DNA from: Candidatus Crickella equi
Lineage (GTDB): Bacteria; Bacillota; Clostridia; Peptostreptococcales; Anaerovoracaceae
Length of the DNA stretch: 64,000 nt
NCBI GenBank assembly: GCA_018064755.1
Contig: JAGHUP010000003.1
Coordinates: 62,001-126,000, forward strand
Direction: 5' to 3'
Part shown: in pieces, positions 5,873 to 42,722 of the stretch
How positions within the stretch are numbered: the first letter of the stretch is position 1
Layout of the letters: every line of letters starts with the position of its first letter
Notes under the pieces: generated by a model
The model's input: the letters and a program-made list of their open reading frames with translations, nothing else
The model's database searches: none
What the model was told of the DNA's origin: nothing
Translations under genes and position numbers: made by a program

Positions 5873-8523
5873 TGTCAAAAAAAGTTAGCGAGCTTATCAA
5901 GGAACTCGAAGTTGATTTCGAGAAACTGAATGGATATGCGGAGCAGCTTGGTATCAAATTAGCAGGAGAAAAGTCAAGCATCGATGATGGCGAAGCTGAT
6001 AGACTGGCTAAGACAGTTAATATGCTGCTGGGTAGACCAACAGCTGAGACTGCTAGCAACAAGCCTAAAATCAATGCAAAGCTGGTACTTCCTAAGAGAG
6101 AAGCACCTAAGGCAAAGCCTGTTGCGCCAGTTAAGCCTGCTGAAGAGCCTAAGGAAGAAGTTAAGGAAGAGCCTGTTGTAGAAGAGGCTCCTGTTGCTGA
6201 GACTCCAGCACCTGAAACTAAGGTTGAAGAGCCTAAGAAGGCAGAAGAACCTAAGGCTGATGTACCAGTTAGGAACGACCTAAGTGGTGCAGAAGAATAC
6301 CAGAATGCTCCTAATAAGCCTATGCGTTTCAAGAAGATTTCTGACGCTGAAACTGAGAAAAAGAAAGCAGAAGAGAATAAGAAGAAACAGCAGGCTAATA
6401 GGGAAAAATTCTACAAGGATAATAAAGACAAGAAAGATCACGGCGACAAGAACCGTGGTGATAAGAAGGATTTCAAGAAAGATAAGAACGACAAGGACAG
6501 CAAGCCAACTCAGAATAGAGGAGGCAATGCCGGCGGTTCTGATGCTCCTGCAGGAAATGCTAAAAAGGGTAAAAGCAAGAAGTTCTTCGACAATAAGGAT
6601 AAGGACAAGCAGTCAAGATTTGATAGAAGAGAAGACGGTCCTGGTTCAAGACGTAATAATAACAACAATAACATCTATGATGAACGTTCACTGGAGAAGC
6701 AGGAGCGTAGCAAGAAGAAGTACAAGACTAAGGTTGAGGAAGAACCTACAATTGAGGAGCTTCTCCCAGAAGGTACTATCGCTGTAACAGTTCCTATTAC
6801 TGTAGCTGGACTATCAGAGCAGGCTGAAATCAGCGTATCCACTATCATCATGTCAATGATGCAGATGGGTGTTATGGCTACTGTTAACCAAACGCTCGAT
6901 AAGGATGCAGTTGAACTGCTCGCAGCAGAGCTTGGACTTCAGATTGTAGTTACTGAGGAAGAGGAAGAAATCATCGAAGCTGGTATCGATAACCACGTTG
7001 ATAACGAGAACGATCTCGTAGGTCGTCCACCTATCATCACAGTTATGGGTCACGTTGACCACGGTAAGACTTCACTTCTGGACGCTATCCGTAACACTAA
7101 TGTTACTGCAGGCGAGTCCGGTGGTATCACTCAGCACATCGGTGCGTCTGAGGTAGAGATTAACGGTCAGAAGATAGTATTCCTTGATACACCGGGACAT
7201 GAGGCTTTTACTACAATGAGAGCTAGAGGTGCGCAGGTTACAGATATCGCTGTACTGGTAGTAGCAGCTGACGACGGCGTAATGCCACAGACCGTAGAGT
7301 CTATCAGCCACGCTAAGGCAGCAGGCGTTCCTATCATCGTTGCAATTAATAAGATGGATAAGCCAGGCGCTAATCCGGATAGAGTTAAGCAGGAACTCAC
7401 AGAGCACGGCATCATCGTAGAAGACTGGGGTGGCGAAACAATCGCTGTACCTGTATCCGCTAAGAAGGGTGAAGGAATCACTGAGCTCCTCGAGATGATT
7501 CTGCTTCAGGCAGAGGTTCTCGAACTCAAGGCTAACCCTGACAGACTCGCTATGGGTACTGTAATCGAGGCTAGACTTGATAAGGCTAAGGGACCTGTTG
7601 CTACACTGCTCGTATCCAACGGAACACTTAAGTCCGGACAGTCTGTTGTAGCAGGTACTTGTGCTGGTAAGATCAGAGTAATGACTGACCACAAGGGTAA
7701 GGCAATCAGAAAGGCTGGCCCAGCAACTGCTGTAGAAATCCTCGGTCTGTCCGATGTTCCAGCAGCTGGTGATGCTTTCAACGCTGTAAGAGACGACAAG
7801 ACAGCTAGAGAAATCGCAAATAACCGTAAGGAGAAGATGAGAGAAGAGGTTCTGGCTAAGAATGCTAGCATGACTCTCGACAAACTGTTCAGCCAGATTC
7901 AGGAAGGCGAAGCTAAAGAACTTAACCTCATCGTAAAGGCTGACGTACAGGGTTCAGTTGGTGCTATCATCACATCCCTCGAGAAGCTCCAGACTCCGGA
8001 GGTTAAGATTAATGTAATCCACTCAGGCGTTGGTACTGTAAATGAGTCAGACGTAACTCTTGCTGAGACATCCAATGCTATCATCATCGGATTCAACGTA
8101 AGACCTTCATCTGCAGTTGAAAAGCAGGCTAAGGATCACGAAGTAGAGATGAGACTCTACAGAGTAATCTACGATATCCTCGATGATATTGAGGCAGCTA
8201 TGAAGGGTATGCTCGATCCTGAATTCAAGGAAGAGGTTCTCGGAAAGGCTGTAGTTAGAGATACATTCAAGGTGCCTAGCGTTGGAGTTATCGGTGGATG
8301 CTACGTTCAGGAAGGTATTGTTAAGCGTAACGAACAGATTAGACTTGTACGTGATGGTATCGTAATCCACGAGGGTGTTATTTCATCCCTTAAGAGATTC
8401 AAGGACGACGCCAAGGAAGTTGCACAGGGTTACGAGTGTGGTCTCGGTATCGAGAACTACAACGATATCAAGCCTGAGGACGTAATTGAGTGCTTCACAA
8501 TGGTAGAGGTTGAAAGAGCATAA
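5872..8523 (+). CDS. infB: Translation initiation factor IF-2
   Basis: IF-2 is the GTPase that delivers initiator tRNA to the 30S subunit. The 883-residue protein starts with the IF2 N-terminal helical motif ([20 protein letters not shown]), followed by a long charged Lys/Glu/Asn-rich linker to about residue 295. The G domain then shows GHVDHGKTS (G1), DTPGHEAF (G3) and NKMD (G4), followed by the C1 and C2 domains. An AAGGAGG site precedes the ATG. The linker contains a 31-base family A repeat half unit read in frame as [10 protein letters not shown] (6261-6291). The peptide parallels VPVRNGLKGT in the upstream metal ATPase. Confidence 0.97.
6261..6291. repeat. Family A repeat half unit inside infB
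   Basis: Bases 6261-6277 are identical to 914-930 of the ATPase copy (17 bases, TGTACCAGTTAGGAACG). Bases 6279-6291 are identical to 17882-17894 of the copy after ppk (CCTAAGTGGTGCA). The unit forms its own hairpin of 13-base arms with two mismatches around AACGA. It reads in the same frame as the ATPase copy. It lies in the disordered linker of IF-2, where an insertion would be tolerated. Confidence 0.8.
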
Positions 8524-40812: not shown

Positions 40813-40848
40813 AAAGAGGGCGGAACACTTGATAGTTCCGCTCTCTTT
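40813..40848 (+). terminator. Terminator after tpiA
   Basis: Arms of 14 bases (40813-40826 and 40835-40848; core GAGGGCGGAAC/GTTCCGCTCTC with one G-U) surround an 8-base loop. The right arm ends in TTT. The secG promoter overlaps it. Confidence 0.8.
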
Positions 40849-40858
40849 GTGCTATTAT
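40829..40858 (+). promoter_or_regulatory. Putative secG promoter overlapping the tpiA terminator
   Basis: TTGATA (40829-40834, in the terminator loop) and TATTAT (40853-40858) are 18 bases apart, with TGC before the -10 box. The sequence after the hairpin (TTTGTGCTATTAT) closely parallels the promoter after the pnp terminator (TTTTGTGCTAAAAT). Confidence 0.5.
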
Positions 40859-40896: not shown

Positions 40897-41130
40897 ATGC
40901 ATACTGCATTAATGGTAATTCTCTTAATTGCATCTCTTCTTCTGATTGTTAGCATTCTTCTCCAGGAGAGTAAGAGTGATGGACTTTCAGGAACAATCGG
41001 CGGTGGAGCTGAACAGCTCTTTGGTAAGAAAAAGAGCAGAGGTTACGATGCAATTCTGAACAAGATTACTACTGTAACTGCAATCGTATATATCGTAGTT
41101 GCTCTTGCAATTGTAGCAATCTTTAACTAA
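40897..41130 (+). CDS. secG: Preprotein translocase subunit SecG
   Basis: SecG is a small subunit of the SecYEG export channel. The 77-residue protein has two transmembrane segments (about 2-19 and 53-75) around a cytoplasmic loop with LLQESKSDGLSGTIGGGAEQ and FGKKKSRG. The ATG at 40897 is chosen because GAAGGAGG lies upstream; the longer frame starting earlier has no ribosome binding site. It sits after tpiA and heads a two-gene unit with the pyrophosphatase-like gene. Confidence 0.93.
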   Translation: MHTALMVILLIASLLLIVSILLQESKSDGLSGTIGGGAEQLFGKKKSRGYDAILNKITTVTAIVYIVVALAIVAIFN

Positions 41131-41157
41131 TAACTAGCAATATAGCGGAGTCTACTA

Positions 41158-42657
41158 ATGCTGAAACTTATACCACTTATCTGCGGAATAATTGGCCTGC
41201 TTGCTGCTTTTGTATATTTTTCATGGGTATCAAGAGTAAATGGCAAGAAGGCTGATTATCAGATAATCGCTAAGAATAATGATCTCTTCCATAGAGATGA
41301 ATGGATGACGATAATCATTACGATTATCGTTCTTTCTGCTGCTACGGGAGTTTTCGTTGGATGGTTTGCATGTGGACTATATGCTTATGGTGCTGCTGTT
41401 ACTCTTCTTGTAGAGTTTGCTGGCAGTAGAGTAATTGCAAGAGGTCGTACAGAACTATCACTTACTGATGACAATACAAGAGCTTTCAGAATTTCGTATA
41501 GATCTGGAGCCGCTGCAGGACTGATGATGACAAGTTTTGGCCTATTGGCACTTGGTGCTATCTTCATTCCGTTCAAACTTCAGTCAGCTGTAACTGCAAT
41601 TGCTTGCTATGCTTTCGGAGCTTCAACAGTTGTTATCTTCAACCGTACTAGATTTAAACCTGTTGCTGACTTGTATGATTCGTATATTGAAACAGTCGTG
41701 TCAGCTATTATTCTTAGTTCTCTTGCGGTTAAGACTTCGAATATTACATCTACATTTAATACTAGAACAGCAGCAATTTTCCCACTGATTGTTATTGGTA
41801 TCGGAATTCTTGCATCAGTTATCGGATCGCTTTTCGTTCGTGGTAGAGAGAGGTCTTGGGAAGGTCTTCACATTAACATTTGTGTTATTGTCAGCGCTGT
41901 GCTCGTAGCTGTATCGTCTGCATTCTTGAGTTATAGAATGTTGCAGTCTTATGTATATGCAGTAGCTCTTGTTATTGGAGTTGTACTTGGTATTGCTACA
42001 GCCATGTGTTCATCAAGAAAGATGATTTTCGTACCTGCTGTATTATTTGCAATTGCAATGATAGTTCCGTATTACTTCATTGGTCTGTATGGAATTGCTC
42101 TTGCAGCTCTTGGTTTCGTAGCGTTTACAGCTGTAATGATCTCAATCAACACATTTGGTCTGGTTACTGATACAAAATCAACTATTGTTAACTTGGGTAA
42201 CGGATATTCAACCATTGCATCAGCTCTTGCTGTTCTTGCTGTATTCGTTGCTTTCATTGATGCTGGACATCTGGTTACTATCAGTATTATGGTTCCAAAG
42301 GTGCTGGCAGGACTGCTGATTGGTGTAACGATGCCTTTGGTATATGTTACTATCTATAACAAAAGTACTGAGGATAAAGATTATAGTTTCATACTGGATA
42401 TGACAGCTATTCTAATTCCGGTCCTGATTGGTCTTTTCCTTGGCGTTCAGACACTCGGTGGTTTGATGGGTGGACTGGTTACTTCCGGTATGATTACTTC
42501 GTTCTTAATTAATAACTTTGGTTCTAATAATGAATCAAATCGTGAGGGATCATACTTGGTTGTATCTTCTGTTAACACATTGATTAAATACATGACTATA
42601 GTTGCTCTGGTACTTGCTCCAGTCTTTAGCGAGTTCGGTGGGATCATCCCGAACTAA
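41158..42657 (+). CDS. Membrane pyrophosphatase-like protein lacking catalytic motifs
   Basis: This is a 499-residue protein with about 14 hydrophobic segments. Several stretches align with ion-pumping membrane pyrophosphatases (HppA, usually about 670-720 residues): FRISYRSGAAAGLMMTSFGLL, AFGASTVVIF, FPLIVIGIGILASVIGSLFV, GLYGIALAALGF and NTLIKYMTIVALVLAPVF. The hydrolytic loops are missing: no GGGIFTKAADVGADLVGK, no DNVGDNVGD, no DNAGGIAEM and no DTVGDPFKDTSGPS. Residues that correspond to the ion gate of the family remain: ADLYDSY (Asp171, Asp174) and NTLIK (Asn473, Lys477). The frame is intact, with GCGGAG eight bases before the ATG, and the gene follows secG. It is probably a non-hydrolytic descendant, perhaps an ion channel, carrier or scaffold. 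Confidence 0.75.
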   Translation: MLKLIPLICGIIGLLAAFVYFSWVSRVNGKKADYQIIAKNNDLFHRDEWMTIIITIIVLSAATGVFVGWFACGLYAYGAAVTLLVEFAGSRVIARGRTELSLTDDNTRAFRISYRSGAAAGLMMTSFGLLALGAIFIPFKLQSAVTAIACYAFGASTVVIFNRTRFKPVADLYDSYIETVVSAIILSSLAVKTSNITSTFNTRTAAIFPLIVIGIGILASVIGSLFVRGRERSWEGLHINICVIVSAVLVAVSSAFLSYRMLQSYVYAVALVIGVVLGIATAMCSSRKMIFVPAVLFAIAMIVPYYFIGLYGIALAALGFVAFTAVMISINTFGLVTDTKSTIVNLGNGYSTIASALAVLAVFVAFIDAGHLVTISIMVPKVLAGLLIGVTMPLVYVTIYNKSTEDKDYSFILDMTAILIPVLIGLFLGVQTLGGLMGGLVTSGMITSFLINNFGSNNESNREGSYLVVSSVNTLIKYMTIVALVLAPVFSEFGGIIPN

Positions 42658-42693: not shown

Positions 42694-42722
42694 AAGCGGC
42701 TCCGCAAGGGGACCGCTTATTT
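42694..42722 (+). terminator. Terminator before buk
   Basis: AAGCGG (42694-42699) pairs with CCGCTT (42713-42718), extended by TCC/GGA inside the stem after a bulge, and followed by ATTTTAT. It ends the secG unit. Confidence 0.7.

Follow-up and report, generated by a model that had tools for sequence, protein, structure and literature searches.

The window, that is the whole 64,000-nucleotide stretch of DNA that was analysed, comes from an organism related to gut species, and about forty relatives carry the same gene at the same place. This gene encodes a homologue of the membrane pyrophosphatases (M-PPases) without their catalytic motifs, here called the motif-less type or pseudo-M-PPase. 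A preliminary description of this DNA had claimed a clean frame of 499 codons and a ribosome binding site after secG. The frame was confirmed to be open, and an RBS-like sequence is indeed present; the gap between the stop codon of secG and the start codon of the pseudo-M-PPase gene is 27 nt. The following features were assigned (window coordinates):

40829-40858, ahead of secG: promoter-like TTGATA-18-TATTAT, weak
40897..41130, + strand: secG, upstream neighbour (ancestral neighbour of hppA)
41145..41150, + strand: RBS-like GCGGAG, 7 nt ahead of the ATG
41158..42657, + strand: motif-less M-PPase homologue (pseudo-M-PPase), 499 aa, ATG at 41158, stop codon ending at 42657
41641..41667, + strand: remnant of loop 5-6, GGGIYTKAADVGADLVGK and DNVGDNVGD motifs missing
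41668..41679, + strand: start of helix 6 with the gate acids D171 (6.50) and D174 (6.53), from the alignment with VrPPase
41728..41757, + strand: motif VKTSNITSTF of the extracytoplasmic loop 6-7, clade consensus V-x-[ST]-S-G-[VI]-x-S-T-F
42148..42201, + strand: shortened loop 11-12, DNAGGIAEM and GNTTAA region eroded, one Asp aligning with Vr D507
42511..42573, + strand: shortened loop 15-16, DTVGDPFKDTSGPS missing
42574..42588, + strand: start of helix 16 with N473 (16.46) and K477 (16.50), from the alignment
42694..42718, + strand: terminator-like hairpin followed by ATTTTAT, 3' of the pseudo-M-PPase gene

The promoter-like site is regarded as weak because such sites are no commoner than in shuffled sequences (6 versus 6.5). 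The 42-nt stretch with the terminator-like hairpin folds at -15.7 kcal/mol (z -3.42); the consensus scan did not detect it.

The family assignment of the protein is borne out by its match to the Pfam family H_PPase (PF03030), which extends over five stretches with an E value of 2.4e-32 and 112.9 bits, the cut-off being 29.7 bits. All 16 proteins searched, the window protein and 15 relatives, match this family at E <= 0.001. The pyrophosphatase equivalogs of NCBIfam are matched too, with their cut-offs far from reached (best 158.9 versus 546 bits), and PDB chains of plant and Thermotoga M-PPases show piecewise matches to the window protein. The predicted model of the window protein has the 16-helix M-PPase fold that the preliminary description had expected, and whose absence it had named as a refutation; the prediction gave an M-PPase fold again when it was repeated for a relative from motif-less sequences only; structures were compared with VIA-align on Foldseek's top 1000.

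What has been lost was measured against the intact enzyme that occupies the same position in a related genome, G005. The window protein lacks 44 aa of loop 5-6, 32 of loop 9-10, 24 of loop 11-12, 39 of loop 13-14 and 27 of loop 15-16, all of which are cytoplasmic. Most of the PPi and Mg ligand columns are occupied by gaps or other residues in the window; the columns were placed through the alignment, using what we take to be the ligand residues of the mung bean enzyme (Vr numbering). Four ligand loops had been described as absent. This holds for most of the catalytic centre, but the DNAGGIAEM region is eroded rather than gone, with one Asp still at Vr D507. In the relatives three other charged columns survive, namely Vr D283 (39/41), Vr K541 as K or R (38/41) and Vr D691 as D or E (36/41), so that survival is not confined to the gate; the corresponding positions of the window protein are a gap, N and E. 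Vr D283 and Vr D691 perhaps form an acidic cytoplasmic mouth in the relatives.

The ion gate of M-PPases consists of D6.50, E6.53/57, S6.54, D/N16.46 and K16.50, as set out in parts of PMC10897367 and PMC5150537. The window protein has D at 6.50, D at 6.53, S at 6.54, E at 6.57, N at 16.46 and K at 16.50, so that D171, D174, N473 and K477 align with the gate as originally proposed. The claim that the membrane segments and the gate persist also stands: 16 hydrophobic segments are kept in the window protein, and D6.50 and K16.50 are retained here and in most relatives. E178 (41689-41691) sits at 6.57, where none of the 40 other motif-less rows has Glu. Plant H+-PPases carry glutamate at this position.

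Distribution and ancestry of the motif-less gene

The genus search covered 47 genomes, the window genome included, and gave H_PPase matches in 45. The motif-less type occupies the slot after secG in 41 of the 47 (378-609 aa as read, the rows of G001, G047 and G053 being cut by contig ends); the window copy is the shortest of those not clipped in this way. With the same type in the same slot of so many genomes, an assembly error in one genome, which the preliminary description had named as one way its reading might fail, is ruled out. Three genomes, G005, G062 and G050, have an intact slot gene. In G005 and G062 every tested ligand is present; in G050 runs of N break up the gene, of which a part could be read. 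For G011, G019 and G041 the search gave no slot gene. The genome of G041 (92% complete) gave no H_PPase match at all, and the upstream neighbours of pheS differ there (L244). In G007 (L042, around 8042-8165) the beginning of the gene is not in frame with what follows, owing either to an assembly error or to a real frame change.

The gene order pgk-tpi-secG-X-(buk)-pheS-pheT is held wherever the contigs allow. Upstream and on the same strand, secG is found at a distance of 1-122 nt in 39 of the 41 motif-less loci; in the remaining two the contig ends before secG would be reached, but buk and pheS are in place on the far side. At L040, L052 and L106 (G005, G018 and G043) buk, elsewhere the neighbour of the slot gene, was not observed in its place ahead of pheS. 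Outside the genus secG adjoins an intact hppA in most of the loci retrieved whole, in other families as well, which dates the adjacency before the loss of catalysis.

A wider scan of contigs led, among the matches listed, to at least 80 loci that were kept, 15 of the motif-less genus type and 65 other homologues. The former are labelled Mogibacterium sp. (five, from goat and sheep gut), Clostridiales bacterium (nine, RUG/SIG) and Clostridia bacterium (one). Among the 65 others listed, 62 have frames of at least 640 aa. Of five loose motif patterns, at least two occur in 64 of these loci and one in L191 (513 aa). In 349 genomes of the family, the two best-scoring frames outside the genus among the matches listed, those of G207 and G333, retain the motifs apart from a short gap at Vr 279 in G207; weaker cases may lie beyond the matches listed. 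A scan with a single protein for motif-less relatives outside the genus gave no match.

In a tree of 56 rows, from which 13 of the 18 rows of a 705-aa type were left out, all 41 motif-less genes form one clade (SH-aLRT 100) beside the intact slot genes. A tree of 27 rows, including 15 of the 41 motif-less ones, gave the clade a support of 100/100. The species tree from pgk, tpi, pheS and pheT separates G005, G050 and G062 from the other 41 genomes with a support of 99, nine of its 44 rows being without some of the four genes and G062 forming a long branch. A warning by the program that long branches meet calls for caution, but the species tree is in accord with both the genes and their order. 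A single ancestral loss of catalysis followed by descent in place is the simplest account of these sequences and the probable one.

The slot hppA in the ancestor probably belonged to the Na+-pumping, K+-dependent class, judging from the intact slot enzyme of G005. This enzyme has Ala and Gly at the two positions of helix 12, as we assign them, and Glu at 6.53. Glu at 6.53 is likewise present in M-PPases of the dual Na+/H+ type. The pair in helix 12 and the residue at 6.53 match those of the Na+-pumping, K+-dependent class in the tabulated part of PMC10897367.

A normal hppA elsewhere in the window genome (1.39 Mb, 82% complete) had been suggested as something to look for, and one was found on another contig. 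This gene, C13, encodes an intact protein of 675 aa with all tested motifs and matches the whole profile with 924.6 bits. The pseudo-M-PPase gene as a recent duplicate of C13 within the genome was rejected, a clade of the two having a p-AU of 4.4e-7.

Second hppA copies occur in 36 of the 41 motif-less genomes; those of G012, G060, G016 and G021 are broken or truncated in the assembly. None was found in G001, G010, G059, G054 and G061, of which G054 and G061 are 96% and 93% complete, and none was seen in the three genomes with an intact slot gene, which are 99%, 80% and 65% complete. Second copies beside motif-less slots and none beside intact ones fit an order of events in which redundancy came first and the loss of catalysis second. 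Three second copies, L057 5277-7304 (C13 of G000, the window genome) and, in two relatives, L108 5093 and L109 5029, are intact, of about 671-675 aa, and branch outside the slot lineage; the other 33 are of the divergent 705-aa type. On these sequences, second copies probably arose more than once. Of 14 genomes tested for soluble pyrophosphatases, 13 have one with the DHHA2 domain (family II type) and none has one of family I. Since the family II enzyme is common, PPi disposal need not hinge on the pseudo-M-PPase.

Slot genes with changed ligands also occur in other genera. In genus g95 of the same family, G340 and G341 have full-length M-PPases of 685-686 aa in the secG slot (L226 3496-5556 and L227 3459-5516). 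These have lost the ligands at Vr 283, 287, 507, 530, 534 and 691 and kept D6.50, E6.53 and K16.50. They thus share lost ligands and a kept gate with the motif-less clade, but are full-length, belong to a separate lineage and stand at an earlier stage. An intact copy lies elsewhere in G341. For G340 (90% complete) none is shown, a misfit with the redundancy idea unless a copy was missed. A family-wide search gave no further close relatives of the two slot copies, the next best sequence being 48% identical. In genus g20 (slot copies L225 3375-5408, L247 2704-4788 and L248 4384-6401) each genome has an intact second hppA; Vr 691 and 541 are changed in the slot copies of G086 and G087, and the G088 copy is broken into two frames.

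Selection on the protein, the gate and loop 6-7

Orthologues and their dN/dS had been proposed as a check, and the relatives gave low values. Among the motif-less genes the median dN/dS is 0.067 (range 0.040-0.174; 53 overlapping pairs with dS 0.25-1.5), figures which describe the genes of the relatives, the window gene having no close relative. The intact 705-aa type has a dN/dS of 0.007-0.040 in seven genome pairs, and in these same pairs dN of the motif-less genes exceeds that of the intact copy by a factor of about 3 to 21. On these sequence comparisons the motif-less protein changes faster than the enzyme and yet is clearly under constraint.

For the window protein itself, retention of residues was scored by column. 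Where the other rows are at least 95% conserved, it keeps 25 of the 29 residues that align, with five additional columns of this kind being gaps in it. The figures fall to 53 of 86 for the next conservation class and 44 of 226 for variable columns. Besides the aligned columns, 14 of the two conserved classes are gaps in the window protein. This profile is the pattern of a constrained protein. With the frame open and the median of the relatives far from neutral, the gene lacks the marks of a pseudogene and has those of a pseudoenzyme, that is, lost motifs with fold and gene kept under selection, where selection is read from the relatives.

We ranked 51 charged columns, all fixed in 27 active rows, by their retention in the 41 motif-less rows. 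Position 6.50 is acidic in 41 of 41 and thereby the best kept of all. K16.50 is fourth, being kept in 36 rows with one more showing a gap, and position 6.53 is sixth, acidic in 32. Position 16.46 is mostly replaced (N in 4/41, D in 1/41). Within the motif-less clade E6.53 was lost on four branches and K16.50 on two, so the gate is not strictly needed in every species. The loss of K16.50 is confined to rows that are also without E6.53, but four and two events are too few to speak for a coupling of the two.

The distribution of constraint along the protein was measured as mean pairwise identity in 26 regions of at least 10 residues. Three thinned sets were used, with 13 (of 39) motif-less sequences, 5 (of 62) distant active enzymes and 11 slot enzymes of the family and order; the motif-less rows of 490 aa or less (2/41) were dropped. 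Loop 6-7 ranks first of the 26 regions in the motif-less clade with a mean identity of 0.57. In the active enzymes it ranks last (26/26) in both sets, of which the distant one, with five rows, is small and gappy in this loop. Loops 5-6 and 15-16 hold the first and second rank in both active sets, and loop 11-12 is 25th of 26 in the motif-less clade. The window protein is the longest branch among the rows and yet retains the loop 6-7 motif. The change from least to most conserved region points to the outer end of gate helix 6 as the place where selection now bears. As far as sequences can tell, it is the strongest sign of a new function, and it emerged from the comparison rather than from the preliminary description.

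Possible functions and comparison with known systems

Very probably, the window gene is a pseudo-M-PPase that has been retained for a new membrane function. Its history may be pictured as follows. A second hppA in the lineage probably made the one beside secG redundant; the PPi-hydrolysing centre would have been lost in the ancestor of the 41 species, and the gene, still encoding a membrane protein of 16 helices, would have been kept since then in a new role. Without its motor the pseudo-M-PPase should be unable to pump. The D6.50/E6.53-K16.50 gate, presumably of the Na+ type in the ancestor, may have become part of a PPi-independent conduit or carrier for Na+ or H+ that is controlled from outside, with loop 6-7 perhaps sensing or binding whatever opens it.

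With the motor lost, the path and much of the gate preserved and the new constraint on the outside, a conduit or carrier appears to be the most likely function. We put forward tentatively, at somewhat less than even odds, a gated Na+/H+ path or carrier that works without PPi and is controlled from the outer face. With somewhat more doubt one may generalise that in most species of the genus the M-PPase fold has given up enzymatic activity and become an outward-gated channel or carrier for cations, equipped with a new ligand loop on the extracytoplasmic side. To our knowledge the M-PPase fold is known only as a PPi-driven pump.

A different reading of the conserved loop 6-7 would be that it binds a ligand or partner in a receptor, a scaffold or a handler of lipids or solutes at the outer membrane face, the gate residues serving only as structural salt bridges. 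The losses of E6.53 and K16.50 in some lineages without loss of the gene would agree with such a role. Position 6.50, however, stayed acidic in every row although most of its catalytic neighbours are gone, and we regard this reading, one of the two main rivals together with the regulatory partner below, as rather unlikely.

M-PPases are homodimers with cross-talk between the protomers. A dead subunit could therefore pair with an intact M-PPase and tune its pumping as a regulatory or structural partner, and a possible partner is encoded in the 36 motif-less genomes with an hppA elsewhere. Passages of PMC10897367 describe M-PPases as working in asymmetric dimers. Against this role, five of the 41 genomes are without a second copy, and two of these (G061 and G054) are so nearly complete that an obligatory mixed dimer is argued against. 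Moreover, the would-be partners fall in two separate clades, and helices 10 and 13 of the dimer interface are not specially conserved in the motif-less clade (ranks 18 and 16 of 26). Such a partnership seems improbable.

That the gene is a functionless, slowly decaying pseudogene is strongly disfavoured: the high dN, the shortness of the window copy and the frame changes in G007 and in the g20 copy of G088 might suggest decay, but no stops interrupt the matched frames of the 41 genes (three cut by contigs, that of G007 starting late), dN/dS is low among the relatives and the hydrophobic segments are all kept in the window. A component associated with Sec translocation, at which the preliminary description had hinted and for which the closely spaced secG upstream in all 39 measurable loci would speak, is equally hard to credit, since the adjacency of secG and hppA is ancestral and the position consequently says nothing about Sec.

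The coupling of the gate to hydrolysis in M-PPases is still argued about, to go by sections of PMC5150537 and PMC10897367. The 41 natural motorless versions, with the gate mostly kept, would allow the gate to be studied alone and to be asked whether it leaks, conducts or stays shut without the motor. M-PPases are small primary ion pumps. The family also illustrates how an enzyme fold may pass to another job, with constraint leaving the cytoplasmic catalytic loops and moving to the outer face. As pseudo-M-PPases pass the Pfam cut-off, annotation by Pfam match alone would call them pyrophosphatases, and such misnaming would mislead reconstructions of PPi metabolism.

Among the matches listed in a search of open PMC text (titles and beginnings of abstracts, with subscription literature outside its scope) there was no report of a catalytically dead M-PPase. 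Passages of the microbial pyrophosphatase review PMC11210485 contain no words starting with paralog, inactive or duplicat. The main text of PMC10211241, which deals with pseudoenzymes, has no words starting with pyrophosphatase or transporter.

Among the closest known systems is the TmPPase of T. maritima, a K+-dependent Na+ pump (PDB 4AV3, PF03030, EC 7.1.3.1). Compared with it, the pseudo-M-PPase is shortened in loops 5-6, 9-10, 11-12, 13-14 and 15-16, has lost most ligands of PPi and Mg and has a new conserved loop 6-7. The intact slot hppA of G005, G050 and G062 in the same genus has the same neighbours and adjoins the motif-less clade in the gene tree. The C13 hppA of the window genome is of the same Pfam family but motif-complete, and is not the direct parent. 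With pseudoenzymes in general, as portrayed in parts of PMC10211241, the pseudo-M-PPase shares the loss of conserved catalytic motifs in a retained fold; it is a member of the M-PPase fold by descent that fails the defining catalytic features.
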